From Antedon mediterranea (Eukaryota > Echinodermata > Crinoidea > Comatulida > Antedonidae), in contig NC_092672.1 in NCBI RefSeq assembly GCF_964355755.1, positions 29,260,501 through 29,324,500 of the forward strand: 64,000 nucleotides of DNA, written 5' to 3'. A program made the position numbers and the translations under genes. The notes below the pieces were generated by a model. It was not told the origin of the DNA. It did not search any database and saw only the letters and a list, made by a program, of their open reading frames with translations. This document shows positions 1,414 to 50,500 of the stretch, piece by piece. Numbering within the stretch: the first letter of the stretch is position 1; each line of letters starts with the position of its first letter.

Positions 1414-1550
1414 GGAAGCCATTCAACCGTTGTGTGAGACCCGTAAAATCAACACTAACAATATACAAGTGTTTCTGGAGTCTTCATCCTCACCTCTACC
1501 ATTGCAAATTCCCTGCTATCCTCTTGGAGGTCAAAAAATTTACATTCGCT
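1414..1550 (+). CDS. PLEKHG5: RhoGEF exon: RBD/ubiquitin-like segment
   Basis: Follows a long T-rich tract and AG; ends at GTAAGT. It contributes one base, 45 codons and one base. The peptide starts EAIQPLCETRKINTNN and continues with an acidic/Ser-rich loop and CYPLGGQKIYIR. The mix of a helix, a P-L-P-L loop and a G-G-x-K strand resembles the Raf-like Ras-binding or ubiquitin-like fold reported near the N-terminus of PLEKHG5. The assignment is by pattern only. The frame stays open past the donor for about 60 codons, but that part is intron and runs into a MITE family B copy. Confidence 0.7.
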
Positions 1551-4500
1551 GTAAGTTACTAAACAAAACAGCAAGACCAAAGATCACCGTATACGTTAGA
1601 TTAACTACGTCTGAACGTACCATTATGGACAGATCCAGGTGGGATCTAGGACGCACCATTTTTCTCCATTTGACTACCGTATCTAAAAATGTATTGTCCC
1701 CCAAAATCACGGAAAATAAAAATCTATAAAATCAGAATTTAATAGGCCATTTTGCAGTTTTATTCAAGTTATTCACTTCAATAGAAAAATAAATGCTTAA
1801 ATTATTTTTGTTGATTATGCCATTTTAATATTTCCCATAAAAAAATTGGCTGTCAGCCAATGATTTTTTGGTTGAATTTAGTTTATGTCTTTTTTTAAGT
1901 GAAAACAATAGTTTGAGGTTTTTTCTGCAGAAGTGATTAACATTATTTAAACTACAAAATAGCCTATTCAAAATCAGATTTATTAATCTTTAATTATTAT
2001 TCATTTTTTTCATTATTTTACTGAAGTTTACAAAACATTCGTATTATTAATAGAAAAAAAACTTGCATTCATAATTTTTCATGTCACAATAATAACAAAT
2101 GTTGCTTTTAAGAAATTACCGCAAATACATTTTTATGGACATAGAGATTTATAAAAATAAGAATTGTACATTGTAAAAACTGTACAATTTATATTTATGG
2201 TGTATTAAGTATCAATAATAAAACAGTAGTTAATATTTGAAAAATGTATATTTTTATACTTGTTCTCAGCTAAAAGGAAAGATTCCGCAATAGGTGACGG
2301 ACGACGAACAGTCGGGCCACGAGCTCTACGCACCATGAAGGCCTGGGATGATAAGGACGTAAGTACAACCATTACTTTTTCTTTTATTGTAAATATTTAA
2401 AATCAAGTTTAAATTGTTTTTTTTCACAGATTATTATTATATTTAACAACTTTTACTTGCATTTCAGAATTTTCAATTATTATCAGTTTTTACTCCATGC
2501 TATTATTGTATTTATTTTAATAATTATTATTATTATTTTCGACAGATATAAGTACTGTATATAGCTAGCAAAAATACAATATAAAGTTATTTGTAAAGTT
2601 TTATCACCACAAATAAAATAATTATTGCTTTATATCCCGTAATTTAAATAAGCAGTTAAAGATGTATTGTCCCCCTGAAAATATAATTCTTACAACATTT
2701 TTTGTTGAATATTCCATTTTAGTGTAACATAATAGTTATCCACTTCGAACAAAAATTGTATTTACCTGGAAAAATGTAATTTAAAGCAAAAAATGGTCAA
2801 ATTGGCTGCCTGCCAATGGATTTTTGGTTGAAATTAACCATTTATTTTGTTTTATAAGTGAAAACATGATTTGTTTTCATTTGTTTTTCTATGGAAGTGA
2901 TTAACTTTATTAAAACTACAAAATAACTTATTGAAAGTCTGATTTAATTAATCTTCATTTTTCATGTTTTTGGGGGACAATACATCTTTAAGCTTCAAAC
3001 TATGTGCTTTATTAATAATTCTAATAGTTAGGCTTACTATTTTTTAATCAAGTATTTCGCTATTTCCAAGTTTGATTTCGGTAGAATTACGTAAATATTG
3101 GTTTTTTTTTATTTGACTTATATTTAGAATTATGTACAGTAAAGTAAACAATAGTTAAATAATAATAAATGTAAGTAGCTGTTATATTGGCACAGTAAAA
3201 AATATAGTGTTTAGGTATGATATCAATACAAATAATTTATATTTAAGTTTTACTTTTACACATAAGGTTATTTATTATTTTTTATTATTATTTTTTACAA
3301 TTATATTACATTAAGTATTAAGACAAACAGTTAAAATTGATGAATTGTTGTTGTTGTTGTTGGCTAAATTTTTTTATAAAAATACAAATTAATACTAACA
3401 ACTCCACACCAAATCACACATTTCGGTATAACACTATTCAAAGCACCTCCAAAATGCAGAAGAATAATCCCAATATTGATTTATAGATATATTCAGTTTA
3501 TTTGATATCTAAGTTAATTTGTGAACATTTTGAAAATGAAGCATAAATGTACTAATTAGAATTAATATATTTTATTAGATTTTTAAATTTGTTCTAATAT
3601 ATTTTTTGGTTTTAAATTTGAGATTTGAGACACTGGCAAAAGCAATGTGAATGATTTCAAATAATGTACATTTTAAAATCAGTTTCATTTTGAATGAAAA
3701 ATAAACAACAAAACAATGGATGTTGAGAGATTCTACTACAGTACCAATAAAAGGATGTAAGAAAGTATCATAATAAAATCTTTTTATTAATTTCAAGAAT
3801 TGAAATGAATAATTATTATTATACTTTATACAGTCTTAAACAATATGAATATAATCTGCCATTTATTCTTTGCTTTATGTATTTTATTAGACAAACATAC
3901 ATTTTTATGTCAAACTTTAATTTCAAAATGTATTTGGAATCTTTTGAGGTAAACAAAACATCAGATTACATCTCCAATAACATTAAAAGAGAAATCCTAT
4001 TTGCACATAGACTCAAATCATTACAAAAATCTCATTTATTGTTATTTTTAGATCCTCTAACAAATTACATGTTCCCTGCAACAGATAAATTTTCTTGTGA
4101 TTAGATTTTAGCCCGCGGATGAAAAACATTTGTGTTGAATGACATCGACGGTTATCCGTGTCTGCCGCTATCATTCTTGTTGATTACTCGGTTGATAAAC
4201 ATAAAATGTCTGTTTACCTTAAAAAATGATTTGAAACAATATTAGTTTCAAAGCTGTGAGCAGTACAGGTTTAAATAAATAGTAAATTTAAATCATTTCC
4301 GATGGAGTATATGAAAAAATAAAACATTTTTTAAAGATATATTTTCACCCTGGAAAAATAATGTTTAAAACTTGTTTTACCACATAATTATTTAAATGAA
4401 TAAATAGTAAACCGGAGAATTATTTCTGAAAGACAAGGATTCTGCTTTTATGTAATGTTTTTGCACATTCTTATTTGTTATTGTGGTTTTTTTTAGGGTG

Positions 4501-7500
4501 GGAGAGGGGTTGGATAGCAAAAAGTGAGTTACTTTATTTATAAAAAAAAAACCAAATTACCTATTTGAAGTTTGAACTTTTTTGTTTCTGTTTTGATTGA
4601 AAATATATCATAAAACAAATTAGAGAAGTAAGTAAATATGTACTGTATGATGAGTGTGTCGTGTTTTATGCGAGGAATAGAATATATATTACTTAATTAC
4701 TTGACTGGTTACAAAACTTAATTTTTGTTTTGGCTACGGAAACACATCCTTATAGTTGTGGACATATCAACAAAGACGAATAATTCATACCATACACTTA
4801 ATACAATATACTACAAATGTCCTTAAGATATCAATTCCTATCTTTTGTGTTGTTCTACATTTTATCTTTTCTTCTATACTAATAATATTATTTGCTTTGT
4901 ATAAGTATGGTTAATTAATAAATAGAGCTTTTTTGTAGTAATTTTTTAATTTATGGAATAAGTTATTTAATATAATATTTAATATTAATTCAATGATTGC
5001 TATACTACTAATGATGATGATGTAATGATGCTACATGTTTTGAGCATTGCTGATTCAAATATCCAAAAGTTCATTAGGATAAGTCCTACCCTAAAATTTA
5101 TGGTACTTAGGGGTGGATCCAAGGAGTGGATCCAAGAGGTGGATCCAAGGGGTGGATCCAAGGGGTGGATCCAAGGAGTGGATCCAAGGGGTGGATCCAA
5201 GGGGTGTGCTAAGCTGCTCTTTGTTTGCTTTACAGTTTAAAAAATCCTGGATACTTCTCTGGTACTTGCCTATTATATATGTTCAATATTAATTATAGAT
5301 CCTATATCTAGCCAAAATTGTATTCCTAATATAGATGAAATCTATGTTTTTTTTTATAAATTCAAAATGTATATAATCAATAATAATATTTATTTGGTTG
5401 ATGGATAGGGTTTACAGTTAATAGGTTGATAGGTATTTGCGCCTACCTGACCTACGAAAAGTGTGTTAAATTATTATGCGCTTGCAGCGACATTGGGACG
5501 TGCTTCTTCACTAAATTCCTTGACATATTTTGGACGGATTCTAAGTCTAGACAATTACCAACTTTACGATATGCGTAGGTCCAAGGTCATTGCAAACCGA
5601 AGGCTCCCTATTAATAAATTAATAAACGTTTATTATTGAGGGGATGAAAACTCATTATATTTTAAGAAATTTTCTAAATTTATATATAAAAATTGATTTT
5701 TATTCCAGTTTATTAAAAACTTGAGGGTATTTTTGCATAGATTACCAATTTGTTGGTCACAAGGACAATTTCATTCTCATTTGCTATGTAAATTAAATCG
5801 TGGTTATCAAAAATTTGTCTTGAAGCAAAATGTCATTTTCATTATTATTTATAATTTATGATGCTGAATACCACTATCAGTAAATATGTATACATCATTG
5901 TAGCGTCATTAATGTTATATTAATAATGGTAATCTTGTTTATTAATGTAGATTGAAATTGATTGCCTAGCATAGGTAACCTTCCTTTCTTGTATTGTTTT
6001 GTATGCATATATGGCCATTTTTTAAATTTTACAATCTAAAATAAAGCAAATATTCCTAAAAAGATGTGTGGAAGACCACTCTGCCCCACCCCCTCCTCCC
6101 TCCTCCCTCCTCCCTCCCACCTAAAAAAATTGAAACTATTCAAAAGAATTGATTGTAATATCATTGTCATGTACAAAATATACAAAGTCAGTCATGTACT
6201 TTACGTCATGATAGCTTCTGCAACTGACACCAATTTCTGAATAGTGTATTATTTTAATCACAATATACACTGAAATTGTATCAATTGCTGTCTCTTATGA
6301 TTACTTTCTTAAAATAAAATTACCATAATGTTTGCACTATTTTGGTGGCATCTTTTGTAGACCATATGTATATATGTGTAACAATTATTTACCGAAGTCA
6401 TTATGAAAGTGTGTTATGTATATAGACATAATACAAAGTGACAGTTGTTACACTCAGTTATTGAGACATTGTGTTGAATGTTGCCTGAATCCACACAATC
6501 CAATGATTTATCTGGAATTGCAAAATTGTATAGTAGAACCACTATTCAGGGGACACAATCAGGATCCAAAAAATGTCCTCTGAATAGAGGTTGTAGTGTT
6601 AAAATATATATATTTACAGATACAGATTCATTTATCTCATCTCCTCATCATAGTGGTTGTGTTAATATATATATTTCCTCTCATCATCACAGAGTGTCCT
6701 TGTAATAGGAGTTGTAGTTTTTAAAGCATTCCCTCTTCACCACTGGTAGTCCCCGGAATAGGGGTATACAAAGAAGGGGTTCACTCCCAGATTTAGCATC
6801 CACAAAAATGTATCAACCCTGTAATAAGTCAGAGTTTTTCATCCTCTTACTTTAAAGTATATAATAGTTTTCATGATATGGGAGTTCTCATTGTTTTTCT
6901 GAGAAATGTTTTTAACTAAAATGAAAAGATGTACAGTAAATCATTGGCACCGGTAAAATTAAAATCAAATTTCTACTTCATTTGCCTTCTTGCATTTAAG
7001 GAATATGTCAGACTCTCAGTCTTTGATATCTGGGACCTTTTCTTCATTTTCCTAAAGATGGTTTTGAAATAAAATCATGTACAGAATTATTGTATTCCGT
7101 TTGCAGTCGTAGCATCCAAGAAATTCGTCAACCTCTCTGAGAAATTATTTGCATCCATCCTTTTTACTACAGGCTTCTTTGACAGTCAAATTAATGTACT
7201 ACATTAAACAATGTTATTATGAACATGTAGAACAACCTGCTATAATTGGCACTGAAATATATTAGATTCTTGTTCTACTGGGCTTTTCATATATAACTTG
7301 TAAAATATAGTAATCCAAAAAATTAATTGAATTTTCTCAAAAGATTGAAATATTTTACTTATGTGTTGTCATAATAACTAACAATAAATGTTAGATGATC
7401 TAACATTGTTATTTTTCTCATCATAAACACAAATGAATATTTTTTTTTAATGGCTTTCAATAGCAACCAGATACAAAAAAAAATATTTTTATTGATTTAA

Positions 7501-10500
7501 ATATGTTTGCCATATTGCTTTGAAAAAATGACTGTAATTAACAAAAGCTTTTTTTATAACAGCTATCCTATAATTCATATTTTGTGCAGAACTCCTATTA
7601 AAATTACACCTACCCAACAAAATGTCCCTGAATATAGTTTGGCCCTTGAATATAGGTTGGCCCTTGAATAGAGATTGGCCCTTAAATTGAGGTGTCCCAG
7701 AAATAACGAGTGTCCTGTACCACTGTTATTTTTACATGAGCAAGAAATAAAAACAAACAAACAAACCAAATGAGGTGTTCTACTGTGTCTGTAATATTTT
7801 TATTTATCTTGTAAATATGAAGATAAATAAATTAAAATGGCTTTGTATACTAATATCAAAGTAGTTGTGATGGTAAATAATACTATTTAGGCCTATAGTG
7901 AGGAATTGTTAAATAATGAAATTTATATAACATGAATATAAAATTTAAAATTTCCTTACAGTAATTGGCGGCAAGCATTTTCAGCTATTAATAAAGAATC
8001 CAATTTAAATTCTTTATTGACTGATTTATTTCAATTTGGCACCATGCCAAGTTATTAACAAATTTCCGACAAATCCTATAGGCCTAAACTCACTAATAAA
8101 GTATGCTGTAGCACTCATTACCAGGCATCACCACATTTTCTGAAAACATCAGATGTTGTGGTATGGTGATGCTATTAAAGATATTTTAATTGCATGATGG
8201 GACACCAAAAGAGACTATACAAAGAGATTTTGGGGTTTGAGTGTTCAAATCTTTGTTATTCTCTCAAGTGCCCTTTTCAAACTAAAGAGATGTTAAATAA
8301 TTAGCATAATTAGCCAAGCACTTCACGATGTTTTCCATTTTGTGGAAAAAAGGGACTAATGTAAACATTTTTGTACAGGCATGTGTACAATCAATTTAGT
8401 GTTGTGATAGGTCCTCAACAACAAACAGCAAACTTGATTTGTTTGCGCAGATGTGATGGAAATGAAAATCTATACAAACCTGACTTGTACACATGCATTG
8501 ATATGCAAAACATGATTTCAAAAAGAAATTCATTATACCCTGTTGCTTCATCAAAAGTCTCCGGACACTTCATGCAATTAAAATGTCCCTATTTATATTT
8601 ATAGAGTGCACTGTAACAAATATTGAATGTTTATGAGTGCAATGGTACAATTTCATGAAAGATGAAATTTTATTGTCATGTGAAAATAGAATTTCATCTT
8701 TTATGAAAAAGTCTCTGACACTTCATGCAATTAAAATGTCCTTATTTATAGAGTGCACTGTATACAAATAATGACTGTTTATGAGTGCAATGCTACAAAT
8801 AATTTCATGAATTTTTATGAAATTATTTATACCATCGCACTTGTATTTTAATCGTTCAATCAAATAATAATTATTATTTAGGTGTTATATAAAATGTACT
8901 AATATTTGTTGTATCTGTTATAATTTACTGTATATATACTTCTCTTCACTTCTTCTTCTATGTAGTCAGATTCCGAGTTCGGTCAAACATACAGAAAGGA
9001 TATCTTTGGTCATCTTGGTATCGCACCACATCCTGTAAGAGTTCTTTTTTGTCTTCTAAAATATCTTCATTCTAACACAATTTTTTTCAAGCCATTCCAT
9101 CAAGATTTCTCCAAAAATAAAAATGTGGTTAAACTTCAGGTACGAAAGTATATGCATACTCCAATAAATTAAAAAATACCATCGTGGATGTTTGTAAAGT
9201 TGAATAGAATTAATATTTTCATGAGGTGAAGGATTCACCCAGACAAATAAAGCAGTCAGGCTTTCAGTGAGTGAAAATATTATTCCCATTCAATGATTAT
9301 AAAATATACCTGTATATTATTTTACAAACTTATCTGTAAGTAAATTATTTTATTCAATTGATCCGGCATTTCACTTTTGAAACAATTGTTGTCGAATGCT
9401 CTCTAAAATTTGCCATGAGGTGAAGCAATTAAGCTGGGTTCCCACTTGGACGCTAAACTGGCGAAAATGTTCCCTGACCCAACACAACATTTGTGATTGG
9501 TCAACTAAGTGAGAACCAAGCTTTATAGACAGATAACATGACATTTCGGCTGTGCATTACTCACTAACCAATCACGTCGATTAAAGTATTTACAATTATC
9601 AAAATTTTGAAGAAAATAATGCATGGTACGAGATACTAAAAATCGACCAAACAAATGGCAACGATACAAAAAGTCATTTTATCAAATGTCATGGATACAA
9701 AAAATATTAGCCAATCAAATGGCAAGGATACAAAAAGTCAGCCAATAAAATGGCAAGGATACAAATAGTCAGTCAATCAAATGGCAAGGATATAAACAGT
9801 CAGCTAATCAAATGGCAAGAATACAAAAAGTCAGCCAATCAAATGGCAAGTAGACAAAAAGTTACAGCCAATCAAATGGCAAAGATGCAAAAATGCAGCT
9901 AATCAAATAGCAAAGATACCCACATATTTGGAGTTTACAGTACTTTCATACTTGAAGTTGAACAACCTTTTCTCACACTTTTTTGATTCTCTTGGGAATG
10001 ATTTGCAGTGATTTTTTAAACCTAAATGTTTTATGTGTGTTTGTACTGCCTGCATGTATGTTGTACTAAATGTGTGTGTGTGCATTGCTGTGTGTTTGAT
10101 TTTATGTTCTTTTAAATATTTTCATTTTATTTCAACTACACTTAATGAAAATTGGTCCATTCAGCCGAAGTGGTTATCATTAGAGACCCTCAGAACAATA
10201 CAATTTATACATTACATATATTTTGAAATTGAATAATATACAATAACAAATAAAATAAATTTAAATTAAATCAAACATGAATTATTTAAAAGAATTTCTT
10301 TTATTTTATATATTTTTCCATACACATTATATGTATGTATTGTTTATATTTGTCACAAATTCATCTTTTTGCATATTCAATTTTTTCATCTTCATAATAA
10401 TTTTTTTTTTTTTTTTTTTTGTTGATTTTAATTATAATTGATATATAAAAATATTTTGCATGTGGTATGTTTAGTTTTTACTACAGTATCAGAGAGTTGT

Positions 10501-13500
10501 ATGCAGTGGACATTTTGTTTGTTTTTTTTTTGCGTTTTGGTAACGATAATGATCATGAAAGATTTAAGATGTTTTATTGTGATACTGAAGTGAAGTTTCT
10601 TGTTTTGGTGATAGTTTTTGAAAATTATATTTTATTTTTTCAAGTAATTTAAGAATATTAATGTAACTTGTGTGTTGTTAGAGAAAAATGTGCTGTGGGT
10701 TTGATGTGGGGTAGTTCTTGTTGTGATTGTATGGTATTATCTCAAAATCTCCTCCTGAATAATTGTGCATTCCACCTCCCAATAATTATAGTGTATCCCA
10801 ATATCTCCTCCTGGATAATTGTGCATTCTACCTCCCAATAATTATAGTGTATCCCAATATCTCCTCCTGGATAATTGTGCATTCCACCTCCCAATAATTA
10901 TAGTGTATCCCAATATCTCCTCCTGGATAATTGTGCATTCCACCTCCCAATAATTATAGTGTATCCCAATATCTTCTCCCGGGTAATTGGTTTATTCCAG
11001 TATCTCCTCCCGGATAATTGCTGTACTGTATCCCTCCTCCTGGATAATCGGTATATCCCAGTACCTCCTCCAGATAATTGGTGTATCCCAGTACCTCCTC
11101 TAGATAATTGGTGTGTATCCCAGTACCTCCTCCAGATAATCGGTGTTTATCCCAGTACCTCCTCCAGATAATTGGTGTGTATCCCAGTACCTCCTCCAGA
11201 TAATCGGTGTATCCCAGTACCTCCTCCAGATAATTGGTGTATCCCAGTACCTCCTCCAGATAATTGGTGTATCCCAGTACCTCCTCCAGATAATTGGTGT
11301 GTATCCCAGTACCTCCTCTAGATAATCGGTGTATCCCAGTACCTCCTCCAGATAATTGGTGTATCCCAGTACCTCCTCCAGATAATTGGTGTATCCCAGT
11401 ACCTCCTCCAGATAATTGGTGTATCCCAGTACCTCCTCTAGATAATTGGTGTATCCCAGTACCTCCTCCAGATAATCGGTGTGTATCCCAGTACCTCCTC
11501 CAGATAATCGGTGTGTATCCCAGTACCTTCTCCAGATAATTGGTGTATCCCAGTACCTCCTCTAGATAATTGGTGTGTATCCCAGTACCTCCTCCAGATA
11601 ATCGGTGTATCCCAGTACCTCCTCCAGATAATTGGTGTATCCCAATATCTCCTCTTGGATAATCGGTGTGTATCCCAGTACCTCCTCCAGATAATTGTAG
11701 TGTCCCAAATCTTTATTCCATGTAATTTTAGTTTTTAATTGTCGCAGTATCTGTCAGGTAATTTTATCCCTACATCTCCTTCCGGGTTTTTCCTAATTAC
11801 TTTTCCATTATTTTTATTCTATTTATATTCCCTTTTTTCACCTACCTTTAAATCCACCTTGATTGTAAAATTTCTCCATTGTTGTAGTAATATTAAAAGT
11901 ACAGTACTGCCCTGCAGTTTTTATAAATATAAATTTTATTTTTTGAATTAAATTTTTTCCAACTTTTGGTTGGAATATTCCTTAGGATTTTAATTTGTCT
12001 TTAACAGTGTTTTTTTACTGTAATTATAATGTTTCTTCTCCATAATAAAGGAATTGATTTTATTGTTTTCCTCTCTTCTCTTCTTTCTAACTAGTCGCTT
12101 GACCATGGTCAAGAATATAAATTCAGAAAAGATATTTTTGGCCATCTCGGAATTACCCCACCAGCAGTAAGACTTTTCGCAATTTTTTTTTCTTAATCTT
12201 TTTTTTTTTCAACAATTAAATACTAATATTACAGTGAGAGGTTTTCTTTCAAATATATATATATATATATTATATATATATATGGATTCATCTTTTTAAA
12301 TTTGTTTAGGTTCTTAAATGGTCTCCAAGATTTCTATCATTTATTATAAAATATAAACCATTGCAAATGATAGTAACCCCAATTATTTTCGGCAAGTAGA
12401 ATGAAGTGAGGTGAATTTAAATTATTTTGATATAAAATTAAGAAAACAATAGTATATGTTTTCACAATACTTGTTTGGCTTCATTGCTGTCGAAAAATAA
12501 GTTGGGGCTATCATCATCATGCTGTTAGAAAGTTTATAATATAATAGAAAACGCGGAGCTCCCTTTAAACTATCTAGATCTATACTGTAGTTCTCATTGC
12601 AAATGCATGGAATATAACATGAAAATGAAATTCACCAATTGCCTGAATGAAATGAAATGAATATGAATAACAAAAATGTAATAGTAGTAGCAACAAATTA
12701 ATATTGATTATTGCATGCCATGTGATCCTCAATCATCCAATCAAATGACAAGAATTTTGTTATTATATTGGTATACCAATAAATTTAAAAATAATCTATA
12801 TCGACTGGAAAAAAAAAACTTCTGAAGAGTTCAGACCAGAGTGTTTTATCTCTGTAAAATTAAGTTAAAAGTTTCAAGTTCTCTGCTTACCTTTTTGTGT
12901 TGAGATTAAATACTTTTTAAATTTTTCTGTGGCCTAGATTTTTTTTTCAGCCAACTAGAGGCAGAGTTGCCTAATAGTATATTTCAAAATTTGCCTAATA
13001 GTATATTTCAAAATTAATACATGGCCTTTATTTCAGACATTGAACTGAAGCCATGTTTTTATACAATATTTTTATGGTCATGAGATGAGCATTAAAGAAA
13101 CATGCTACAAAAAAAGTTTTTGTTATTCTAAATTCAATACATCGTTTAGTCAATTTTTGTGGAAAATGAAAAGTCTAGAGATTGATATTTTCAGAAATTG
13201 TTCACAAATTTATTTTACTTATTTTAATGATTTTTGTATCTAATATAGTTTTTTATTAAGCATGGTAGAATTAAAAAATTAATATTTTTAGGTTATACAA
13301 ATTTAATTATGTAGATAAGTTAATTAAATACTTTATTAATAATAGAACATAATAATCTGATATCTTCTCACCAATTAGTAGTAATGTGACTCAAATTGCA
13401 TTCAATTAAGCCAATAGCTGAGTCACAAGTTTGTAGCACTCACTAGTAACATCATCGTTATTGAAACTGCATGTAATTGTTTTCTAATAACATAGAAATA

Positions 13501-16500
13501 TTAAACGCAATCTAACAAAAACACAGAATTAATACCACCATTTTTTATTAATAAAATTTATGAATTGAATAATTTAATTTATTTTTTTGTTTTGTGTTAT
13601 AAAATCAATATATTTAAGGATTATTTCAGTTTTTTGGGGGTTTTTATATTACATGGGATAGTTTGGGTAAATGTTAATTACATAAAGGTTTTTTATTATA
13701 ATAATAAATTTGATAGCTGGGTTTTCTTCTTGGTATAAATATATATTATATAATATATATTATTTGGAAGTATTACTATGATATTTAAATAGAACTTTGA
13801 GATCTTTAATATTATAACTTATTACAAATTTCATTTAAAATTAGTTTTTAAAAAATCAATATTCATGGTTTTAATAATTGGCTTTAAATGGGAATCTGCC
13901 TTAGTGATTATTTACTGTAGAAAAAAGTATTATTCTTGCCTAGATTATAGATGTGAAATCAATATAATATAGAACTATGTGCAGGCTCCTTCCCATTGTT
14001 TTTTTTCACAACATGTTGAGGCAAAACAAACAAAACAACATGAACAGCATATAATGAATGAACATAAATATTTTCTAAATGTCATAGATTACAGAGGGCG
14101 CTCAGACTTACTAAATGAGAACGCTTTTTTGCAAGCAGCTAGTTTGCTTAATGGTTAACGTTAATGAAAGCTGACACCCGGATTTTAAACTCATATGCCG
14201 TTTTTATTAGAGCTGAGTAGGTTGGCTATGTTGATAGTTATTTGGTAGATAAAGCTATCTTGCGATTCTTACATGAAAATAATTATGTTCATCCATTATT
14301 TATGATTTTTCCATAACATGTTGAGAAAAAAATAATGCGTGCAGACCACCTTCCTCTACTCCAAATCATCAATTAGTCTTGCTGTGCTGTGGAATATATA
14401 TTATATTTATGTTTTTCCTATAATGTTTATCTATACCGTCTTTTATATCATTTTCTTCATTTCTTTGGATTATGTCGATTTTTTTCATTTCAGATATCCT
14501 TTTTGATTCTTGTTCCTTATGAAAACAGACAAACTTTAAGAATTAACAATTTTGTGGACCTAAAAAAATTCTTTCCAAAATCTTTCAAATCAATATAGCA
14601 TTTTAGTTTAGTAAATACAATTGCACATTTGAAATTGATTGTTGTCCAATCCAAAATAAAAAGGCTGAAAAATATAAGCCACAGGACAACAATAGTACTT
14701 TGAAAATAATTAATATTATCAAATATCACAATATAAGTTTGGTATAAATATCAAGCAAAAATATATTGTCATCATTATTGAACCAACGATCTTTATTTTT
14801 TTCAAATTCTAGAAATTTTAAATTCAGATGAAATAAATACAAAAGGCAAGGACACAGGTTGCAATATTATAAAATTAGATTTTTAAATAAAATTGATTCC
14901 GAAAGATTCAGAAAAACCATTTATTTTCAAATTAAAGACATTAATAATACTGTAAATAAATATTAGAATTATGAATTATTTATTACCGTAATACGATAGG
15001 TGTGATGTAGTTTTGTATTTAATAATTTTTCTTCTGTTTTTATTTTTACTCAAGAAACCAAATAATTCAATTAATTTAAAAGATTGCATTGCAGAATACA
15101 AGTATGATCCATAAAACATGAACAATTACTATATAATAGGAAGTTTGTCTGTTTTCTTAGCATGTAGTACAATATCTGTCTTACATTTCAGCAACAATAT
15201 CATAGAAAAGACATCTTCACCCATCTTGGTATGTCGACAATTTCCATCGCTTCATTGCCAGTCCCAGAAAGCAACTCCCCCGCAGTTAGGAGAGTCTCTC
15301 TCCCTGTTCTGAACTTTTCCAGCAATTCGTCCCCTAAGGTTTGTACCGATAGCTCCTCAAACAATACGAAAAAACCAAAAAAAATCTAACAGCACCGGAT
15401 GTTCTCATGATAACATATCTTATCATTCGCAACTCGCCATATAGCACTTTAAATTTAAGAGATACTACGTAGCCGTGGGGAAAAATATCCTGGCTTCTTG
15501 TTGAAATGGCAGTGAGTTTTAGATCCTGGACAACGTACGGTAAATCTAGAACCATATATTAACTATATTTAAATTCTACTAAAGCTTGGTTCCCACTAGT
15601 ATGCATCATAAGGATATAAGATTAATACTGTACAAGTAATTTGACCAATCATGATGGGCGGTGACAGTGTTCAATTTTTCACTGCTCTTACGTCCCTGCG
15701 TTGTATTATTCTGAGAACCAAGCTTTATTTTTTTTAATAAAAGACAAAAAAATGCATTGAGAACAGGCTTTGAAAAGTTTCCCAATATTTTCTAAGTTGG
15801 AACATCTGACTAGATGAGCGAAGGACCAACAGAATTTAGGCCTAAAATAGACAAATTTTTATTCCATTGATGTCCAAATTTTCTTCATTGTGATTGGTCA
15901 GTATTTTTTATGTTAACAAAATTTTGTTAGATTTTATGTCCTAGGATTACACATACTCTATGCATCATGTAATACAACATCAAACTTTTCTTTAGAAATA
16001 ATTGTCACAGATCTAAAACTCAAGTCATTCTTCAGTTCCAACTAAATTTACGCTCTAAATATCTTCTGCAAAGTGCCCTCAATGCTTATACTTCCTACGG
16101 CTATGAATAGTTGCTTGGGATTGATTTTTCATATTAGTGCATCTGGTAGCTTAAAATCAATAATGAAATTTGACTTTTGCTATTATATCATCAAAAAGCA
16201 CATCTTGATATATTTATAAAATGTTGCTTTTTTTGTTAGTGTTGTCTGCTCTAAAGCATAATAAATAAAAAAATAATTTCACTTTTTACAGGCAAAATTG
16301 TGTTATTTTCAAAAACTTATATATGAATTAAAGACAATTTTTGCATGTGGTATGTTTAGTTACATACCTTGATCTTTCCAGGTACTTCAACTCTAGCCTA
16401 GAATATCCAGACTTTTGATGTCCAGTCTAAACATTATTGAAATATTTTAGACTTTAAAATCCAGACATAAAAACATGAAATACTGATTGCTGCTAATTAA

Positions 16501-19500
16501 ATTGAGATACAAAACATTGTCATGTTTTAATTTATTATGATGTTTTCATTACTGTTTTTGTACAAATTATGTTTTCTTTTGTTTTTCTATTCTTGATTTC
16601 ATTTTTCTTTAAATTCAAAGATTTGTTTTTTCCTGCACTTTCTCACAGCATGCGAACACTTTTTATTTTCCACTGCACAAAGTAGTCATATAGTTTAATA
16701 ATTTTGTATCATAGGCTGTTTTAGTTAATACTAAAGTATTGCGCTGGTTAAAATTTTATAAATGCCCAAATAGTTTTGAAATTATTTTATATTGGGGAAA
16801 ATGTATCTATGGCAAAGTTTGAGATTTAATATTTTGATAATGATATTTCTAAAATATTGTTTTTTTTTTAGAAATGTTGTTTATCCATGCATTTAAACTA
16901 CAGTTAATATTACATTCCATGTGAAAGTACCTTATTTGTTGGGTCTCTAAACCCATCATCCTTTTTACACAAATGTTACAATACCTGTTTTACCTCCTTG
17001 TATAAAATCTTGTTAACTAAAAAATGTTTATTTTGAAAAAAAAAAAAATTAATAAATTTTTTTAAAAAGTAGTGCGAACTTCTCAGTGTGAATTGCTCGG
17101 TATCCTACTGTGTAAATGGGTTTAATTAGCAGGTTTGTATTTTGGTGGACTAATATTTTAGAGCGATTCCTAATCAAACTAATGCACATATTTTCAATAA
17201 TTTTTTTCCATTTGGTAAAATTATAAACTAACTTCTAAATTTAAAAAAAAACAACTTTGCATGTGATTAGATTTTAGAAAACTTAATCGACTAATCTAAT
17301 ATGGGATAAACTTAATACAGAAGAAATAGTAAGTATGTAACATCGCGTAGATAATATATTCTTTGATTTTTAAAATGAATACATTTATTTAAATTGATTT
17401 AATGCTACTTGTATACATTTATTCTAATTTGCCAATAGCAAAGTAATGGAAAATGATTGTTAAAATGATTTAATTCATCTTTTGTAAAAAAATATTATGC
17501 TTAGAATTATATTACCAGAGATTGCATTTTTGTATTTTTATGCATTTTAATTGAAATTATGATATATTTTTTTTTGTAAAAATCTGCTAACAATATTCAT
17601 TCCTGTTGCATTGCTATGGCATAACTGACAACTGTTTTGATGATTTTTTAAAAAATAGTCCACTAACTCCCTATGTTGATAAGAATTATGAATTGAATTT
17701 TCAGGAAGTTAAGGATATTCGCCTTATAGAGCTGGAGGACAAGCTTCAGCTTTATATGGAAGAAGGTCTTCCAGAATTTCCGGCGTTGCTCTCATTCAAC
17801 CGGAAAAAAGAAGACATTTCAGGACTTTTAGAACTTGTAAGAAAATTGCAAAATTATCAATGTATTATTTTTTTACTCCTGATGAAAGCATTGATCGAAA
17901 CATCAATAAGCTCTTCAAAACTACGTACCAGAAAGTTTATTCTTCTCCGTAAAAAAAAACAAGATGAATAAAAAAACAATGAAAGCTGTTTAAAACTTCT
18001 TACGGTGTACCGCACTTTATATAAACAATAGACAGTGATTCCAATAGAACAGCAACAAGACCATTGTATCTGTTTAAAAGTATTTTAATATATAAAAATA
18101 TTTTTAATGCAAAATTTACAAACAAAAAGAACAAAAATTGACTTTTCGATACCGAAACGTTGTATTGAAAATATTTAGTAAACGTCTTAATTCATAATTT
18201 ATACAGAAATAATCTAAAATATGGACAACTAGGCGACCATGATGTGATGTCAACAGGACAGCGACTCTTAAAAATGTCTGGCACTATCTGTTTAATTTAG
18301 AATATAAAAATTATAACATAAACCTGATGAAGAACAATATAAATATATATAATATAAATATAATTTTTTTTTTACAATTCAAGTTGAAGGTGTCAATCTA
18401 GTTCTATCCATCTAGATAAAAAAAATTATATATATATCGCTATAGCAACAATAAAGTATAAAAATAAATTTGTATTCTCCAATGAGGGCATAAAAGGATT
18501 TGCGGCAATTGACAAATTATTTCAGATTACAGAATCTCATTTGAGATCAATGACACTTCTCGATTTGGCTCAACTGTGGCTATTCTAATTGACACGCATC
18601 ATTAACTTTTAGATGCATTACTTTAGCTCGTTGAGAAGAGCCTGACTGAGCGTGTCTACGTTTTATAGAGTAATTTGTTGATATTCTTTTGTTTATCTTA
18701 TCTGTAACTTTAAATAATATAAGTGTATCGCTTGTATGAATTAGCTAGCTAGTATTAAATTTAAACAACCTTTCAAGAAAAGTATGTGCTTATTCTTTCT
18801 GCGTTTTTTTTTTTGGCGGACATCTTTAAGATTCTCAATTTCAAAATTTCTAAATTTCAGGAGGAGAGTTGGAAAGAGATTTATAGTGGAGATCCAACAG
18901 CGTTAACCAAACAACAAAGAGACCAACAAGAAGCCATGTGGGAAATTATATTTACCGAAGCATCGTACCTTAAGAAATTGAACATTATTGTTGATGTAAG
19001 TGTTGTCTGTAACGTCCTTCATGAATTTCGTCTCACAATCATAGAAAAATATGAATATTCTGAACGATGCAGGTAGTGTGTGCATAAACGTGTCTAAAAC
19101 TTAAGGTTTCTAAAGCTCTGTGTACAAACTAGTTTATTTTTTAATTTTTTTTTTTTTTACCATATTTAATGAGGGTGATCCATCCAGCAATTGCTGATCA
19201 TTAGGGACCCTCAGAGGTTCACAACACAAACATTATACACAAGATGCTCTATATAAACAAAGTCTTATTACAAGTCTTTGGGAGTGGAGTTGTAATTTTG
19301 TCCTTAGAAAAAATCCTGACATGTGACGTGACTTGAACCCAGGACGCTTGGAGTGGTAGTCAAGCATCATATCCACCAAGCCACAACTCCACTCAAAGTT
19401 TGACAAAAAAGGTGTGATGTGCCCAAATATGGTAGTTATATATATCATCGTGTCCATATATGGGCACATCACATTGTTTTTTCACATAAAGTTTGATAGT

Positions 19501-22500
19501 GTAGAAACGAGCTTAAGGGACATGTATGTTTCACCTAGAACAATTATATTCATTAACCATATCTTAAATTTTAAATAACTGAAAATATGAAATTTAATTA
19601 AAACATAATTGTCTTTTTTTTTTAACTTTTAGCTTTTTTTATCAGTTCTTCTAAATGTACAACAGCATTTAATTTTGTGCGAGGTAAGTTCATCTTTTAA
19701 TTGGTTTTTTATTTCTTGTTATTTTATTATAAATGAACCATCATACAGTACACCCATAACTTTATTTTCACAATGGTTAGAGTATTTTGAGATTACAAAA
19801 CTCTCCTTTTTTCATTAAATTTTGTATTTAAATGCGTTAAATTTCTTTAACTTTGAGATTTCAATGTTGTTTTATTTTCTTAGATCGATTCAGAGAAGTT
19901 ATTCAGTAATATACGAGATATTCAGGATTTGCATATTAAATTTTACAAAGAGTGTCTGCATGATGTACTCCTAAATGCCAGAACAGCAAAAAGTCTTCTC
20001 TCCCCCGTTGACATTGCCAAAGCCTTTGAAACAGTAAGGATTGCATTCCAAATCTGACTTTCCTGTATCTTCCATATGAGAGATTAAATAGCACCCCTCT
20101 GTATTCTGTTAACATTAATTTTAAGTAGTGAGCTCTTTCCGAATTCAGTTTTTCCTGTTTTTTTTTTTTTTATATTATATTTCACTCAGTTTTTGAGTGC
20201 TTTCATTCCTCACTGCTATTACTGACATTTTTTCTGAAATAATAAATAATGTTTTCATTCTATTCATAGTTCCAGGAACGCTTTTACCCATATAATAAAT
20301 TTTGCAGAGAAGAAGAAAAATGTTTGCACTATCACAGGGAAAAACAAAAAGAGAATGATGCATTTAAACTGTTTGTAGACGTAAGTAATTCACATTGAAA
20401 TCAGCAGAAAAACAAATATTAAGAACAATTTGCAATAGACAAACGGGTCAGTAATAAACAAGAATATTTTTTTTAAAAAACGCTGCTCGCTTATTGTTAT
20501 TGCTGAGGTCAAGTCTGGGGGTCACTTCATCAAGCCTAGATACTTCAAGTATCCTATTACAAACAAAAACTTCAATGGACTGTGACAGTGAATTATAGTA
20601 ATATCATGGGACTCACAAATACCAGAAATGCTTTGGGATTTGTCATTAGACTCTTTTCCCAGCCGTTTTTTGGATTCGACAGGTGGTACCTATAAATTAT
20701 AGTCGAGTTTCCATTTTAACAAAAAATGTCAAAGTGTAGTACTATACTGCTGCTTGATTTCATCTAATGAATGAGTCATCTCGTGTGACGTAGCGGGCTA
20801 GAGCAGCAGCGTGAAAATATATAATCTATGTTATTCCTTTTGACCATTTACACAACGCGGAGTGGAGTTGTGGTTTCCACAGGATAGATACAGATTTTAT
20901 GTGGGGCAAGTGCACATTTTTCCGCTTAACGTTGCCGCTTGTCTGTGTAAATTGGCCTTACGGCAGTGCGTGTCCTTTTTAGGAATGTCCCTTGAATAGG
21001 TGTGGCTGTATTGTTTAAGCATTTATTGCACCTTGCTTATATCACAGGAAAGTTTCATATAAATTGGGATGTGCCCTGAATAAAGGGTTAGTCGTTGTGT
21101 TAAATTATACCGTTTATTTTCCTTCATTGGTTTCACAGAAAACTTTACCCTAAACACTGTAATAGAGTAGACAATATTCATATCTGCTTGTAGCCATTAG
21201 CAACTTGTTTTTGTTTTTTCACAGTGGTGTGAACAGCATACAAAAAGCGAGAGGCGGTCCTTGGCTGAGTTACTTGTATCACCTATGCAAAGGTTAACAA
21301 AGTATCCACTGTTGTTAGGTGCTGTCGGCAAGAAGGAAGAGGACCAAGATGTGCAGGATCTGGTGAAGCAAAGGGTAAAAATGATTTGATGATTAACAAG
21401 ATTTGATGATTTATAAAGATTTGAAGATTAGAAAAGATTTGATGATTAGAAATGATACTGATACTGTATGTGATACTTAATTGCCTTGGAAAATTTAGTT
21501 TAATAAATTTTCGTCATCTTCTCATAATACATATGATATTAAACAACATTTTATTCTCAAGGAGACAGAAGTAGGTTCGTTCATCCGATCTGTAAACCAT
21601 GAAGTCCGCAAGGATCACGAGTTAGAACGTCTTGAAGAAGTCGCCTCAAGAATCGAGTCATGCGATATCGTTGACTCATGCAATACTGATGAGTTGACTC
21701 AGGTAACATATGCAAATTAACAGGCATTAAACAAAATCTAAACCGCTTGGTAATATACTGAATATTATATGTCTACTAATTAATAACAATAAAGATGAGG
21801 AAACCTGTGAAAATGAGAAAAAGTAACCCCAATTGAGATTTGAATCCGGAACCTTTAATCCTTTAATCCTAACCATTAAACCACTGGGGCTTTCATGATA
21901 TTTTTCAAACTTGATTGGATAGCGACTCTTTAACACCCTTAGTATGGTACGGCAAAACAGCACTAGTAATTGGATTGGAATTAATCTCAGACCGAAGGAA
22001 CTTAATTTATCGCAGAAATGGATTTGAAGATGGTACTAAAAATGCATGCATCTGCACAAATTTGTAACAATTTTAACCAATAGGAAGTGTATTTGGGCAC
22101 TATTTGATTACTATGATTGGTCAGTTTAACAGAGCAATACACATGCATATGCTGTAGTACTAAATTGGGACATCTTGTAACAACAAAAAACGTGGCCTCT
22201 AGTCGGTGTGTTTTTCTCAACATTTCACAAGGGACCCATGTGAAATCTCTGGAGATTTTCCACACAATTGTTTTCACACTATGCAAGCTTGGTTACAATG
22301 TGTCAATTTTTTTTAGTTGATGTTTTCAATATGCCTAGTAGAAAACAGGCTTAATTAGGTAAATCACGGCTAGTTTACTTTTATATCACATAATAAATTG
22401 TGAATATATTTCATACATAGAGATCAGGCTAAAGTAAATATCATAATAGCATATTTCTTTATCTTATGTAGTTGTTGGCGCTGAAAGCCTTAAATCTGAA

Positions 22501-44182: not shown

Positions 44183-47100
44183 TTATGGTTGCTGATGAAA
44201 GGCGTTGTCCGTATTCGTATTCACAATACCAGTAGAGTCATCGTTTCGTGTACGCCGCTGGCAGCATTTCATAGTACAGCAGCCTCTTGTTAGTCGTCTG
44301 CAGGCTCTTTTACAACGGTGCCTGATTTTGTTGTTACAAAGACAGAACATTATACAATTGGCCGCTCCTTGGAAACTATTGCCTATTCCCTGTAATATAA
44401 GAAATTAAAATTGTAGAAAACATATATAATTTATATAGAAAATTGAGAGAATATCCAAAGATATTTGAAGTAAAGTTAAAATTCTGACAAAGAAATTGAT
44501 AGTCTTAACAGTGGATAGGCAATATCAGTTATTTGTATTTGTTTTGTTTTACTCCATATTCATTGGTGTGTTAAGCTTCGTCAAACTTTATTTGACAACA
44601 AACATGTGATGCGCCCGTCACGATGATGTCATAACTACTGTACAACAACATTAATGCAGCACACATCGCTCTTTTTTTGTCAAAATAGTGTGACAATGTA
44701 GATGAAGCTTTAAAGCTCAGGTACAGGCATGAATTTTAAATATAATATTTGGTTAATTGTACATAAATCAAATATTTGTAACAGAAATCGAGACGAAAAA
44801 ACATGAATTTCCCTTAATATGGTCAAATACAAAATTTGGCAAAATTCTTCCATAAAAAACAGAAAGACTTTTTTTTTTCTTTTTTTCAGTAGTTAGGTAG
44901 TTAACCTAATGTAATAACATGTCTGGTGATTCCCTAGACGGTGAACAAAGATGCTGGATATACAGTGGATAATTTTTGCTATAGCATGACAATAAAAAGC
45001 TGAAGTTGAATAAAAATATCAGAAATGTAGGCCTAATATTCAAGTTATATTACCTATATTTAGTCATCTGATAACATTTTTTACCACACCGTTTATTTTT
45101 CATAGCTTTTTAAAATGCCTCTCTATTTACAAAATTTGTGTACAAAAGAATAGAGATTTTACTGTGTAATTTGAACTATCCCCCCACTGATAAGAAAGTG
45201 CTTATTTTCAACAAGCTCGTGTAACACAAATAAAATCCCAAAAATTATGAAACATAGGGGAAACTATAGATCGATAATTATTGGAATGTATGATCAATAG
45301 AAATTTTTTGCCCGCACCTGCCCTTTAAGGAAACATTCTCCTTTTGAATATACAGTAATATGAAAGAAAATTCACTTCAGTCGAATGTTGTGAAATGAAA
45401 CATCTGTAAACTACAATCCATAGGTGTAATGAATGAGAGTTTGTGGGATACAGAAAAGGTGTTTAGTTGTATCAAATCAGGTCAAATAGCAAAAAAAATA
45501 TCTGTAAATGTATCCTTGTTATCGATTTTGTTTCCAAATGACAATTCAAGAAAGTTTACCTTTAAACAATCGTTTCCGGGTTATTTTATTTTATCCCCCA
45601 TTCCTGTCTCCTGACCTCCCTCCCTGACTCCTGACCCCTGACCCTACTTACATGTAACAGAATCAGAATCGGATTGGAAACAGCGTTACAATCATAAACC
45701 GTTAAAACGAATCGGACAGTACTCCAGATATGTAACACCAAAAACACTATTGGAATAAACGTCAGCTTGACATCAATCTTAAGAGTGACTGTCGTAACCA
45801 ATCCCTGGTTGGAAATCACCGTCACTTGGTTCTGGTCGGACACCTGGACGTTGTAAAAAAATGTTATATATTATCAACATTGTTGAAATTTGTATCAAAA
45901 TCGTCACAAGTGAGAGTTCGTAGATAATCCCGCGATTGTGAAATGCGTGACGTGTTTGGACAATTACTTGCGTTCGTTTTTACGTGGCGTTTTACGCGGT
46001 GTGCTAACTATAAGTGCCCAAAATTTGCACCATCACATTGGGCTATAGAAATTGTTTTGAATATAGTACCAAACAAATTGATCGAGGTTTCACAACAATA
46101 GGCGCTATATTTAAATCCAGGATCGATATTATATTATATTGATGACATCACAAACTAGAAAGCCACTCCGAGAGTGCATACCTCCGCCTACTGTAAAATT
46201 CTCCTACATAAGATATATATTTGTGTGTCTTAATGCTGTTTGTGATTTACGCTAATTTCACTACAAGCATGTGTATGCGAGTTTGGCGTAATGGTTATGT
46301 AACAAGCCTTTCAATTAACAATAGCTTCAGTTGACTAACAATAGAACAGCAACGCGAAAATCAAACGAGTGAATTTGAAAAGAAATAGGTTTTGTAAACT
46401 ACTCGCATCAAAAAACGTGCACATTAAATCAAATTATGTTTTAGAATTACAAATTACAAATTATAACTCTTGCCTCTTGTACAAAAATGAAGTTTTTTGG
46501 ACAAGTAGTTCTCGAGAAAATTCAATTTGAGTTTACTTGTTACTTTAAGACTGCTCGCCGGCTTTTGAAAAATTCTGTCCTATCTTTTCAACACTAGCAG
46601 GTCTGAAAAGTATACTAAAAAGTGGTCCAGAATTGGGACCGTGGTCCGAAATGGTCCCAAAATTTAATGGAATGGTCGTTGACCACATATCTATCTGTAC
46701 ATTCATTTTGGTAAAGACCTTGTAATTACTTTTTGAGTAATCCTGCTAATAAACAAACAAACAGACAAACTCCTTGGCGGAGGTAAAATATTATCAAAAT
46801 CTCGAGTTATCCGTATCTTCAGCATGAACTGATATGTCTCTGTAAGGTTTTGCAAATTATTTCGTTTAATAGCGATTTTAATATTTTTTAATGGAGATTC
46901 ATTTGAATAATAATACAATTAATATATTATGTATGTAATAATTATATAAATGTACTCACAAATCTTTTGAACTTTCTCTTGATTAAGATATAGAGAAGAG
47001 GTAGGATGAAATAAGAAGCAATTTCCCACATTTTACCAACCAACAGCATCCACATAATCCTGTGCTTCACATCCAAGTCAACCCAGCACCACCCTACAGA

Positions 47101-47589
47101 TGTATACGAATCATCGTACCCCAGAGCACCAAAAGATACTGCAACAATCACTGTTATAAGTGGAACACCCCAGCAGACAAAATGGAATAACCACACCAGC
47201 CTATTCATCACCACTTGACTGGACTGTGCCACTAACGCATAGAGGTACATCGCAATTGCAACAGTCCAGAAAAAAGAGCTTGTCTCAGAGAACGTTGTAA
47301 TGGCACTCTGTACAGTACATCCCATAGGATTGGAATGGAAATCTTCAATTATCCCGTAGGCATAACTAACCGATACAAAGAAGGTCGTAACTGATAAATA
47401 TACAAGAAGCTCACGTGTTTTTGTTCGGAGGTCGCGCCAAATAATAAAAGTTAAAATTATTAATATGGATCCAATTGCTGACAGAATACATGACGTCACA
47501 GTTAAACTTTCTATCCATACATCGATGTGTATTGCAGGTGATGATGATGGAACAGGATGTATCGGAAGCCAGGTTATATTTTCTGCCAT
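44183..47589 (-). CDS. GPR157: Orphan seven-transmembrane receptor GPR157, complete
   Basis: Minus-strand exons 47589-46960 (210 codons), 45843-45652 (64) and 44389-44183 (68 plus TAA). Junctions are phase 0: TTT/GTGAGT, CCAG/GTG, CAT/GTAAGT, TTACAG/GGA. The 342-residue product compares with about 335 in human. Exon 1 holds an N-glycosylation site (N4-I-T) and TM1-TM5 (about residues 28-51, 61-80, 97-120, 131-152, 177-202), including SSFFWTVAIAMYLYALV and the family signature SVGWCWVDL. Exon 2 gives TM6 (IWSTVRFVLTV). Exon 3 gives the TM7 end (GIGNSFQGAANCIMF) and a Cys/Arg-rich tail that could be palmitoylated. GPR157 is a cAMP-receptor/secretin-like GPCR, reported as Gq-coupled at the cilium of neural progenitors. 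Intron 1 contains a TIR element and intron 2 holds MITEs A and D. The short minus-strand frames now make a single intact receptor. Confidence 0.93.
44571..44711. mobile_element. MITE family A, divergent copy
   Basis: TTAAGCTTCGTCAAACTTTA at the left and ACAATGTAGATGAAGCTTTA at the right, with GATGATGTCATAAC inside. It directly abuts the family D element that follows. In GPR157 intron 2. Confidence 0.55.
44711..45329. mobile_element. MITE family D, full-length (about 620 bp)
   Basis: Left end TAAAGCTCAGGTACAGGCAT; right end TTTGCCCGCACCTGCCCTTTA, an imperfect inverted repeat. Fragments of the same sequence are at 32301-32632 (left half) and 41172-41501 (right half). No coding capacity. In GPR157 intron 2. 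Confidence 0.75.
46180..46790. mobile_element. TIR element in GPR157 intron 1
   Basis: ATACCTCCGCC at the left and GGCGGAGGTA at the right, preceded by AAACAAACAAACAGACAAAC. The interior includes GGTCCAGAATTGGGACCGTG with repeated GGTCC words. The AAACAGACAAACTCCTTGGC ending resembles a widespread invertebrate repeat. Confidence 0.55.
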
Positions 47590-50500
47590 GACTGAAGACT
47601 GATTTTAATTGATACAGGCCTAGCCTTCAGAACATCAAATAAACTTGTTTAAAGGCCTAAATACATCAATAATCTGCATCCAGCGCCAGTATCAATTATA
47701 ATGGTAACGATAGGTAGGTCATCCTTCAATTACCTCAAACTTAAAATGCAAGACCTGGCTTTTGCAAATAAAGAAAAAAAAACAATTTAAAACATGTGTT
47801 TAGGTCATGTCAGAGCTTAAAATAATGTTTATTAACTAACCAAGGCTAACTTGGCCAACTGTACTTTAACCTGTATACATATTATTTGTATAGTGTTATC
47901 AAGTAGAGGGTAAGATAATACGTACAACACAGGGTCGTCGTACCTTCAAAATAACACCCAACCAAATTCCATGTTAAATAACAATTAACAATATAAAATA
48001 TTTAGATTTGGTTCATATTTTTATAATCAAGGCAGATTATTCTCAGATGTTTTGATATTAATTTCCAGAGGCTCCTATAATTCACTGGACATTATAGTTT
48101 TCTTACATAAAGCAAAAGAAGATAGTGTAAACAATTTAGGCTGTCTTTGATAAAAATAATATTTTTTGAATTCAATCAAATCAAATGACGTAATGATAAA
48201 TAAGAACAATATCGTATTGTATTCGTCGTCGTCAATAACTTGCGCTTACAATCATATACGTCATCTGTGTTGGATCTTATTATATTTTCATCAAAGCATA
48301 AATATTTAGATCTAGGATGAACACTATGTTGATTTCTTTTGTTTTAGGTAGGGAAAAAAGCATAATTATTATTTACTTATCGTTGATCGTCGTTATATTT
48401 TCGGTCGTATCGATGCGGTTAAACGAAAATAAAATAAAAAAAAAGATGATATTAAAAGTGCTATAAAACTAAACTAGAAAGTAACAGTATTATGGACGGA
48501 AAAATCACCACAACAATTTCCAAGCGAAGCAACATAATACTGAATACTAATTACTAAAACAATTTTGCGTTTTTACGTCAGTTCGACACTGACTAAAAAC
48601 ACATATCATGTCGGTGCTAAATTGTATCGGACTGCACCGAAATCGAGAGTAAAAAGATTAGATACCTAACTAATAATTTAGAATAGAAGCTTACCTTTTA
48701 AATATAATAATATTATTTAACCATTGAGAGTAATGCGTTGTTCTATCTAACGCAAATTATTAATATTAAAACCTTTGTTTGATTTGTCAATATACATTCA
48801 AGCCTACCCTTAACTTTCTCAACTATAATTAAATATTCTACTGTTTTTGTTTACAAAGAGTGCGCCCTCAACAAAGTTGCAAAAACTAAGACAAGTTTAA
48901 TTTCTTGCTTCATATTTATTCAATTTAAATTACAAATGAACATATATTCTTAAAAAATAAATATACTAATCATACTATAGTTAATTTATTTAGAAATATT
49001 ATAATTTTTCTACAGAATAAATAGTTTATGTAATACCATTTAGATACAATTCAAATTTAAACATGGCCGATTAAAGAGAGAGCGGATCGCGGAGCGGGAT
49101 TTTTTTATAGACAACGTGAATTCAAATTGTTCGATAGATTAAAAACTGGTTTATGTGAGTTTGTATACCTACAAAATTATTTAATATATTGTATAGTAGT
49201 GATTCATTAATTATAAACAGATAGAGTTGTTAATAAAGCCCTCTAATTTGTTAGGCTAATAACAGTAAATAAATGTGCCAACCGACCGGGCCGGACTTCT
49301 CGGCGTGGCCACCTTGCCAATTGCATGTATCGCACACCGTGTAGCCTAGTCTAGGCCTAGTTGGTTTCGAAGAAATGATCATTGAGGGCTAGCCAGCCTA
49401 TGCATACAAACTTCCCCCAGATGAATTGCTAAATTGTAGTTTCTTGTTTTAATAGGGCCTAGGCCTATCATTTTCATTTACAAATCCAGATAACTAATAT
49501 TAATATTATAATATTAGTAATAATTAATAATAGGCCTAGCCTAGCAGAACAAACGGAAGTTGATGCATAGTTGGCTCTCCATATACATAGCGCCTTATAT
49601 GGGCATTCAAAACATTGCGGCCGAAACCGTTTGCGGCCGAACACGATGTACACCCTAGCAGTAGTAGTAGAAAGTAGTAGTAGGGCCAGGCCTAAATCAA
49701 TCATTCAATTCATTACAAAAATGGAATTTGTTTAAAATTGTTTAATCAATGTAATTCATTGATTGATGCCAACAAATATTTTTGTTTGCAGTAATAATAA
49801 TTGGAATGAAATATTTAGAGACTTCTTTAAATGCCTTCTACTAGGTTTAGGCCTAGGTAGGCTAGGCTAGTAGTAGTAGTACATAGTCATAGGCTAGCCT
49901 AGGCTAGGCCTAGTATTTTTCAACTTACTTACTACTTACACCACACATTACACATGGGTCATTCTTCAGTAAGTGTCTAAAATCGTGTCCCGATACTTTG
50001 GTGGGATAGAGACTGAAAATTCATCATTAAAAAATAAAAATTCTTGACTTATATCATAATCAACATTATTGTAAATATAATTAATTACATGAAACAAAGA
50101 TAATTACATTGATATTGTTAATTTTTATAAAAATGTTTCAGGCAACCCCCTAAAATCCTATGTCCCGATCGTACATCTTCCATTTTATGATCGCCGTATA
50201 TATTTGATAACAGGACTTTTGTTATCGAAAATATTGTAAAAAGTTAGTTAATCATGATTTCATGCGATTATATTCTTCGAAATACATCTCTACATACATT
50301 AAATCTCAAACTTTAAAGTTTTTGTTTGGAAAAAGCTTGTCCCGCAGTTTTGTGTCATTTCCGTCACATAATTTAAATGTACCGTCTACAGTTTAATGAA
50401 CGGCGGGGAAAAAATTGACTGTGCGTTGTAAACATACGAAGATATTGAAATAAAACTAGCCGCACATCATTTTCAATAAAAGAGGAAAAAAGCTAAAAAA

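Follow-up and report, generated by a model that had tools for sequence, protein, structure and literature searches.

PLEKHG5 (Syx/Tech) is a RhoA activator and a motor-neuron-disease gene (PMC3282746), and its RBD-like domain binds Rnd3, which restrains Syx through that domain (PMC2928299). An autoinhibitory N-terminus is discussed for the C. elegans protein RHGF-2, without sequence support (PMC3282746). Tandemly duplicated exons occur in about 10% of animal genes according to a 2002 survey cited in PMC9013439, and in NCoR-family co-repressors one of the short CoRNR motifs was gained late, the exons there later becoming alternatively spliced (PMC4554918). In C. elegans daf-2, RBFOX proteins act through UGCAUG located in the intron that follows a cassette exon (PMC4876481). 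Here we describe a 64,000-nucleotide stretch of the crinoid Antedon mediterranea (the window; RefSeq assembly GCF_964355755.1, contig NC_092672.1, positions 29,260,501 to 29,324,500 of the forward strand), in which the linker of a putative PLEKHG5-like RhoGEF is encoded in part by three neighboring exons, E1, E2 and E3, each carrying one copy of a nine-residue motif, RKDIF(G/T)HLG.

E1 (8966..9034, + strand; 69 nt, 23 residues, SDSEFGQTYRKDIFGHLGIAPHP), E2 (12095..12166, +; 72 nt, 24 residues, SLDHGQEYKFRKDIFGHLGITPPA) and E3 (15192..15338, +; 147 nt, 49 residues, starting QQYHRKDIFTHLGMSTIS) contain no stop codons, are bounded by AG and GT, and are in phase 0 at both ends. The cores, located by degenerate-pattern matches and codon comparison, lie on the + strand at 8993..9019 (copy 1, RKDIFGHLG), 12125..12151 (copy 2, RKDIFGHLG) and 15204..15230 (copy 3, RKDIFTHLG). 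Eight of the nine core residues are invariant across the three exons, and the third bases differ in seven of the nine codons. A three-way alignment, in which only the first 18 residues of E3 were taken in, contains 10 invariant columns: a Q, a Y and the eight core residues. A first-pass annotation of this DNA, made by a model from the letters, had described three exons with this motif that are multiples of three and phase 0 at both ends, and the coordinates, frames and splice sites agree with it. Its picture of three like copies holds for the shared core; E3 is no mere further copy, exceeding E1 and E2 by 25–26 residues and joining its motif to a Ser/Pro-rich tail. This tail encodes RRVS (15288–15299), absent from E1 and E2, which we take to resemble a protein kinase A site.

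Recurrence of the core is far beyond chance, and the proposal that the exons are paralogous is supported. A pattern covering all codons for RKDIFxHLG matched the assembly (354,431,138 bases, 18 contigs, some stretches being read as N) three times in the forward direction and never in reverse, all three matches falling in this gene, and a reversed-pattern control gave no matches. Within the window, a profile of the copies returned the three exons at E 4.6e-13, 1.1e-11 and 1.8e-11 and no fourth copy better than E 0.25. Further copies in the genome were sought with the exact codon pattern and the E1 peptide only; the E1 peptide recovered E1 and E2 and missed E3, so a diverged copy elsewhere could have escaped. 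Among the matches listed, no PDB or Pfam element covered E1–E3, and the letters RKDIF(G/T)HLG are absent from the paper texts searched.

Fourteen exons were joined manually into a model of the surrounding gene on the basis of splice sites and a provisional human PLEKHG5 sequence whose letters are unverified, giving a product of 547 residues. Exon X1 (1414..1550, +) probably encodes the C-terminal part of an RBD-like domain, as indicated by alignment to the provisional human sequence and by a Pfam RBD match (E 8.5e-4; 19.6 bits, below the curated cut-off of 25.7) that covers profile positions 24–67 of 69, the remainder being expected upstream. The N-terminal zinc finger of the family would likewise be encoded ahead of X1. 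X2 (2270..2358, +), whose frame carries on from X1, encodes linker and ends in phase 0. Downstream of E3, the hand-drawn model places X6 (17705..17836, +) just ahead of the DH domain, most of which is encoded by X7–X11 (18861..21374, +); the joined model matches Pfam RhoGEF at E 3.5e-33 (115.7 bits against a cut-off of 27.6). A PH_16 match (E 0.005; 17.1 bits, below the cut-off of 22.8) follows, the model stopping at X14 inside that domain. The three matches occur in the order expected of the PLEKHG5 family, and a BLAST alignment of the model with the provisional human PLEKHG5 spans 574 columns at 34% identity (283 bits). Among the 59 chains of solved structures listed, the closest are ARHGEF11 (68.6 bits), ARHGEF12 and ARHGEF1, and none is named PLEKHG5; at least 46 matches to other RhoGEF pieces were found in the genome. 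We take the gene to be PLEKHG5-like, and the joined-model Pfam and BLAST matches support the first-pass placement of E1–E3 in the linker between the RBD-like and DH domains. A large C-terminal open frame at 24343–25341 ends in KDESP and may be spliced to a further exon; this end presumably differs from the PDZ ligand described for Syx, which would have been lost or would lie on the further exon. Elsewhere in the window, long minus-strand open frames at 46945–47604 and 59718–60743 resemble, by eye, a piece of a seven-helix receptor and a leucine-rich-repeat protein.

Comparison of the core codons suggests that the motif has been protected from amino acid change. Between E1 and E2, the nine core codons carry five synonymous differences (Sd) and no nonsynonymous ones (Nd), with pS 0.88 and P 4.1e-4 under neutrality, conditional on the observed changes. 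E1 and E3 differ by four synonymous and two nonsynonymous changes (P 0.020), and E2 and E3 by five and two (P 0.0058); over 13 codons the P values are 2.3e-4 (E1/E2), 0.099 (E1/E3) and 0.023 (E2/E3). The repeated core thus looks to be under purifying selection, as had been proposed from its varying third positions and constant protein, and the genome-wide pattern count is a stronger argument than these P values. Synonymous divergence among the copies is high (pS 0.59–0.88 over 9 or 13 codons). When the introns following E1, E2 and E3 were compared with one another and the best 14 alignments considered, none exceeded the best of a reversed control, 51.1 bits, for which twice as many pairs were run; the highest, at 42.5 bits, contains the 23-nt pair described below. 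Because the introns cannot be aligned above the control and synonymous divergence is high, the duplications look old. The exon starts are 3129 and 3097 nt apart, a spacing that fits tandem duplication of units of about 3.1 kb and is only suggestive. Together, these features read as an old tandem exon triplication retained by selection. Separately, about 350 nt of the intron before E1 (from 2856) match a segment of the intron after E2 (from 13043) at 62.5 bits and 61% identity over 352 AT-rich columns, above the control and among the best 14 alignments; this is perhaps a dispersed repeat.

The human protein may carry a single counterpart. The linker of human PLEKHG5 presumably contains RKNMSEFLG, its letters being unverified. 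No other segment of the provisional human sequence matches the core as well (score 17.3, against a next-best 7.0 in the linker and 10.7 overall), and gapped BLAST aligns RKNMSEFLG with the motif of E3. When the linker was shuffled 20,000 times, 243 shuffles reached this score; for the entire 693-residue stretch the figure was 812 of 5,000, and therefore the position of the match carries much of its weight. The letters RKNMSEFLG are absent from the paper texts searched. We treat this candidate counterpart as a lead only; the earlier statement that no such motif is known in PLEKHG5 may be too strong. If the human letters are right, the motif would be ancestral and was triplicated in this lineage. 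PLEKHG5 acts in autophagy, and on this basis D-I-F-G-H-L might be read as an FxxL (LC3-interacting) motif; this reading was left aside, there being no F in the provisional human copy.

The first-pass annotation had called E1–E3 cassette exons and reasoned from their frame neutrality that up to eight isoforms, or mutually exclusive use, are possible. In the hand-drawn model, introns are in phase 0 after X2, E1, E2, E3 and X6 to X13 (12 of 12; the introns after X1 and X14 have other phases), and each of the 11 exons from E1 through X13 has a length divisible by three. The DH exons being equally frame-neutral, the frame is uninformative on whether E1–E3 are cassettes, and that argument fails. The donors of E1–E3 match U1 at 5–6 of 9 positions, compared with 5–8 of 9 for the other 11 donors in the model. 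Ordinary splice sites, comparable to those of other model exons, and phase 0 surroundings are what would be expected if E1–E3 were all constitutive, giving a tandem triple motif with no splicing choice; we regard this alternative as a serious, if tentative, possibility. It would require that the intronic element described next be used in some other way or be a relic of the duplications.

That element is an exact pair of 23-nt strings, TTTTGCATGTGGTATGTTTAGTT, each containing TGCATG and lying on the same strand as the gene: copy A (10454..10476, +) in the intron after E1, 1.4 kb past the exon, and copy B (16339..16361, +) in the intron after E3, 1.0 kb past it. Comparison of their flanks shows that the similarity ends abruptly. 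Allowing one mismatch, the assembly contains exactly these two matches, and allowing a second adds none; with three allowed, seven further matches appear, all with three mismatches, compared with 27 and 26 in the control. When the four introns were simulated 100 times at order 3, no shared complex string exceeded 19 nt, the top value being the only one usable as a string length, and 23 was never reached. A relic of duplication should not remain exact over 23 nt with its flanks erased, which counts against E1–E3 being simply constitutive. The finding of only two copies in the assembly led us to reject a transposon piece, and a microRNA or other hairpin gene was set aside as the two copies with their flanks fold unalike by eye. 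An intronic element apparently duplicated within one gene and unmatched elsewhere in the assembly is the new feature of this locus, and is an unusual detail beside tandem exons. An exact 17-nt match is also shared by the intron after E1 (9510–9526) and the one after E3 (15712–15728); it has an inverted near copy at 15580–15597 and looks like a dispersed repeat. Minisatellite arrays with 31-nt, 56-nt and 30/62-nt periods occupy parts of the E1–E2 intron (9632–9919 and 10738–11697).

UGCAUG is the binding site of RBFOX proteins. Between 2359 and 17704, TGCATG occurs nine times against 4.0 expected (Poisson P 0.02), the highest of 180 hexamers of the same composition, and in the introns after E1, E2 and E3 eight sites are sense and one antisense (P 0.02), the sense sites numbering 3, 3 and 2, respectively. 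One of those after E2 (13468..13473, +; 1302 nt past the exon) lies in sequence that by eye weakly resembles the 23-nt element; two more TGCATG follow E2 at 12604 and 12712. This surplus, together with an intronic element unmatched elsewhere, weighs against constitutive inclusion of all three exons. With a provisional RBFOX query, RBFOX-like RRM pieces were found in the genome at C1:19746732 (96% over 24 residues) and C1:19741837 (69% over 42 residues).

With moderate confidence we favor a duplicated docking motif whose copy number is possibly set by RBFOX-type splicing; what the motif does, alternative inclusion of the exons, RBFOX control and a shared ancestry of the introns are all inferred. 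The starting point would have been a linker exon in an ancestral PLEKHG5-type RhoA exchange factor, bearing a short docking or autoregulatory motif (R-K-[DN]-[IM]-x-x-[HF]-L-G when the provisional human copy is counted). Two tandem duplications of this exon, probably taking in some intron, would have occurred before the introns lost their alignability, and purifying selection would have kept all three copies as coding exons. The protein could then present up to three binding motifs between the Rnd-binding RBD-like domain and DH. Each motif may dock a partner or the DH-PH unit, so that repetition raises valency and copy number tunes avidity for the partner or for the protein's own DH-PH. It is because of the intronic element that we suggest copy number is set by splicing; the choice of copies in the mRNA would most likely be regulated, in part or more by an RBFOX-type protein acting at UGCAUG after E1, E2 and E3. 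A more far-reaching version, in which an undescribed ancient PLEKHG5-type linker motif is present in zero to three copies set by RBFOX-dependent splicing through the duplicated intronic elements, grading RhoA activation in neurons or muscle, seems to us unlikely.

Several observations weigh against a docking motif regulated in this way. The splice sites of E1–E3 are not clearly weaker than those of the other exons, and all three exons could be constitutive. The intron after E2 contains no copy of the 23-nt element. Conservation weakens outside the core, as the 13-codon E1/E3 comparison indicates, and the core P values are generous since the core was picked for its conservation. Over the whole 693-residue stretch the provisional human match is not significant. 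The TGCATG strand bias is absent or reversed elsewhere, with sense-to-antisense counts of 1:3 before E1, 3:4 in 17837–25341 and 4:8 in 25342–64000, and the UGCAUG test, devised after the 23-nt element had been seen, is weak alone. Measured from the ends of E1, E2 and E3, the nearest downstream UGCAUG sites are at 586, 438 and 1004 nt, respectively, distances that are far for a typical RBFOX site. Finally, Pfam Fox-1_C had no match in the genome.

A second alternative is mutually exclusive splicing, in which exactly one of E1–E3, or exactly one of E1 and E2 with a constitutive E3, is included. Since this may overlap with RBFOX control, the probabilities of the two readings need not sum to one. 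E1 and E2, neighboring paralogous exons in one frame whose lengths differ by a single residue, speak for this reading, and they fall within the 20-residue limit on length difference used in PMC5740500; E3, 25–26 residues longer, falls beyond it. The introns between E1 and E2 (3060 nt) and between E2 and E3 (3025 nt) rule out steric exclusion, which operates below 50 nt, and the GT-AG borders of all introns rule out a U12-type mechanism; inclusion of two copies, moreover, preserves the frame. Selection by competing RNA pairing was also rejected: in 2359–17704, scanned for that element only, the 23-nt element has no unusual partner, with 32 of 40 shuffled elements pairing as well or better (scan step 20 for the real element and 25 for the shuffles). 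We consider mutual exclusion improbable. A third alternative, in which E1 and E2 derive from E3 and are now decaying, with little or no splicing of either, agrees with BLAST pairing E3, rather than E1 or E2, with the provisional human PLEKHG5, yet is very hard to reconcile with a shared nine-codon core bearing five synonymous and zero amino acid changes and with four intact splice sites.

To our knowledge, few working parts of the N-terminal half of PLEKHG5 have been mapped besides the Rnd3-binding domain. Triplication of a nine-residue motif in one lineage, and its protection there against change, point to a working site in the linker and, if the human letters hold, RKNMSEFLG provides a precise target for mutation in the well-studied vertebrate protein. 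Should splicing set the copy number, the locus would be a clean natural case of splicing-controlled motif valency.

Exons duplicated in tandem are not unusual in themselves, and there is precedent for a gained motif whose exons were alternatively spliced later. The docking-motif reading shares with the NCoR family a repeated short motif and the diversification of function through motif gain combined with splicing; NCoR, however, is a nuclear co-repressor whose full set of CoRNR boxes reportedly lay in one large exon that was later split, rather than being made by copying of a small exon (PMC4554918). As with daf-2 exon 11.5, an RBFOX-promoted cassette of C. elegans, UGCAUG is found in the downstream intron (PMC4876481), although the candidate sites described here lie 0.4–1.9 kb past the exons. 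Like other tandemly duplicated exons, E1–E3 are adjacent, homologous, in the same frame and intact at their splice sites; they differ in being small, in consisting mainly of one short motif, in numbering three within a linker, and in the long unrelated tail of the third. PLEKHG5 itself is the probable counterpart: a candidate RBD-like exon, linker, DH and the putative start of PH follow in the same order, and the provisional human linker holds one similar motif, with S at core position 5 where the crinoid copies have F; here the motif is present in three tandem copies, one per exon.

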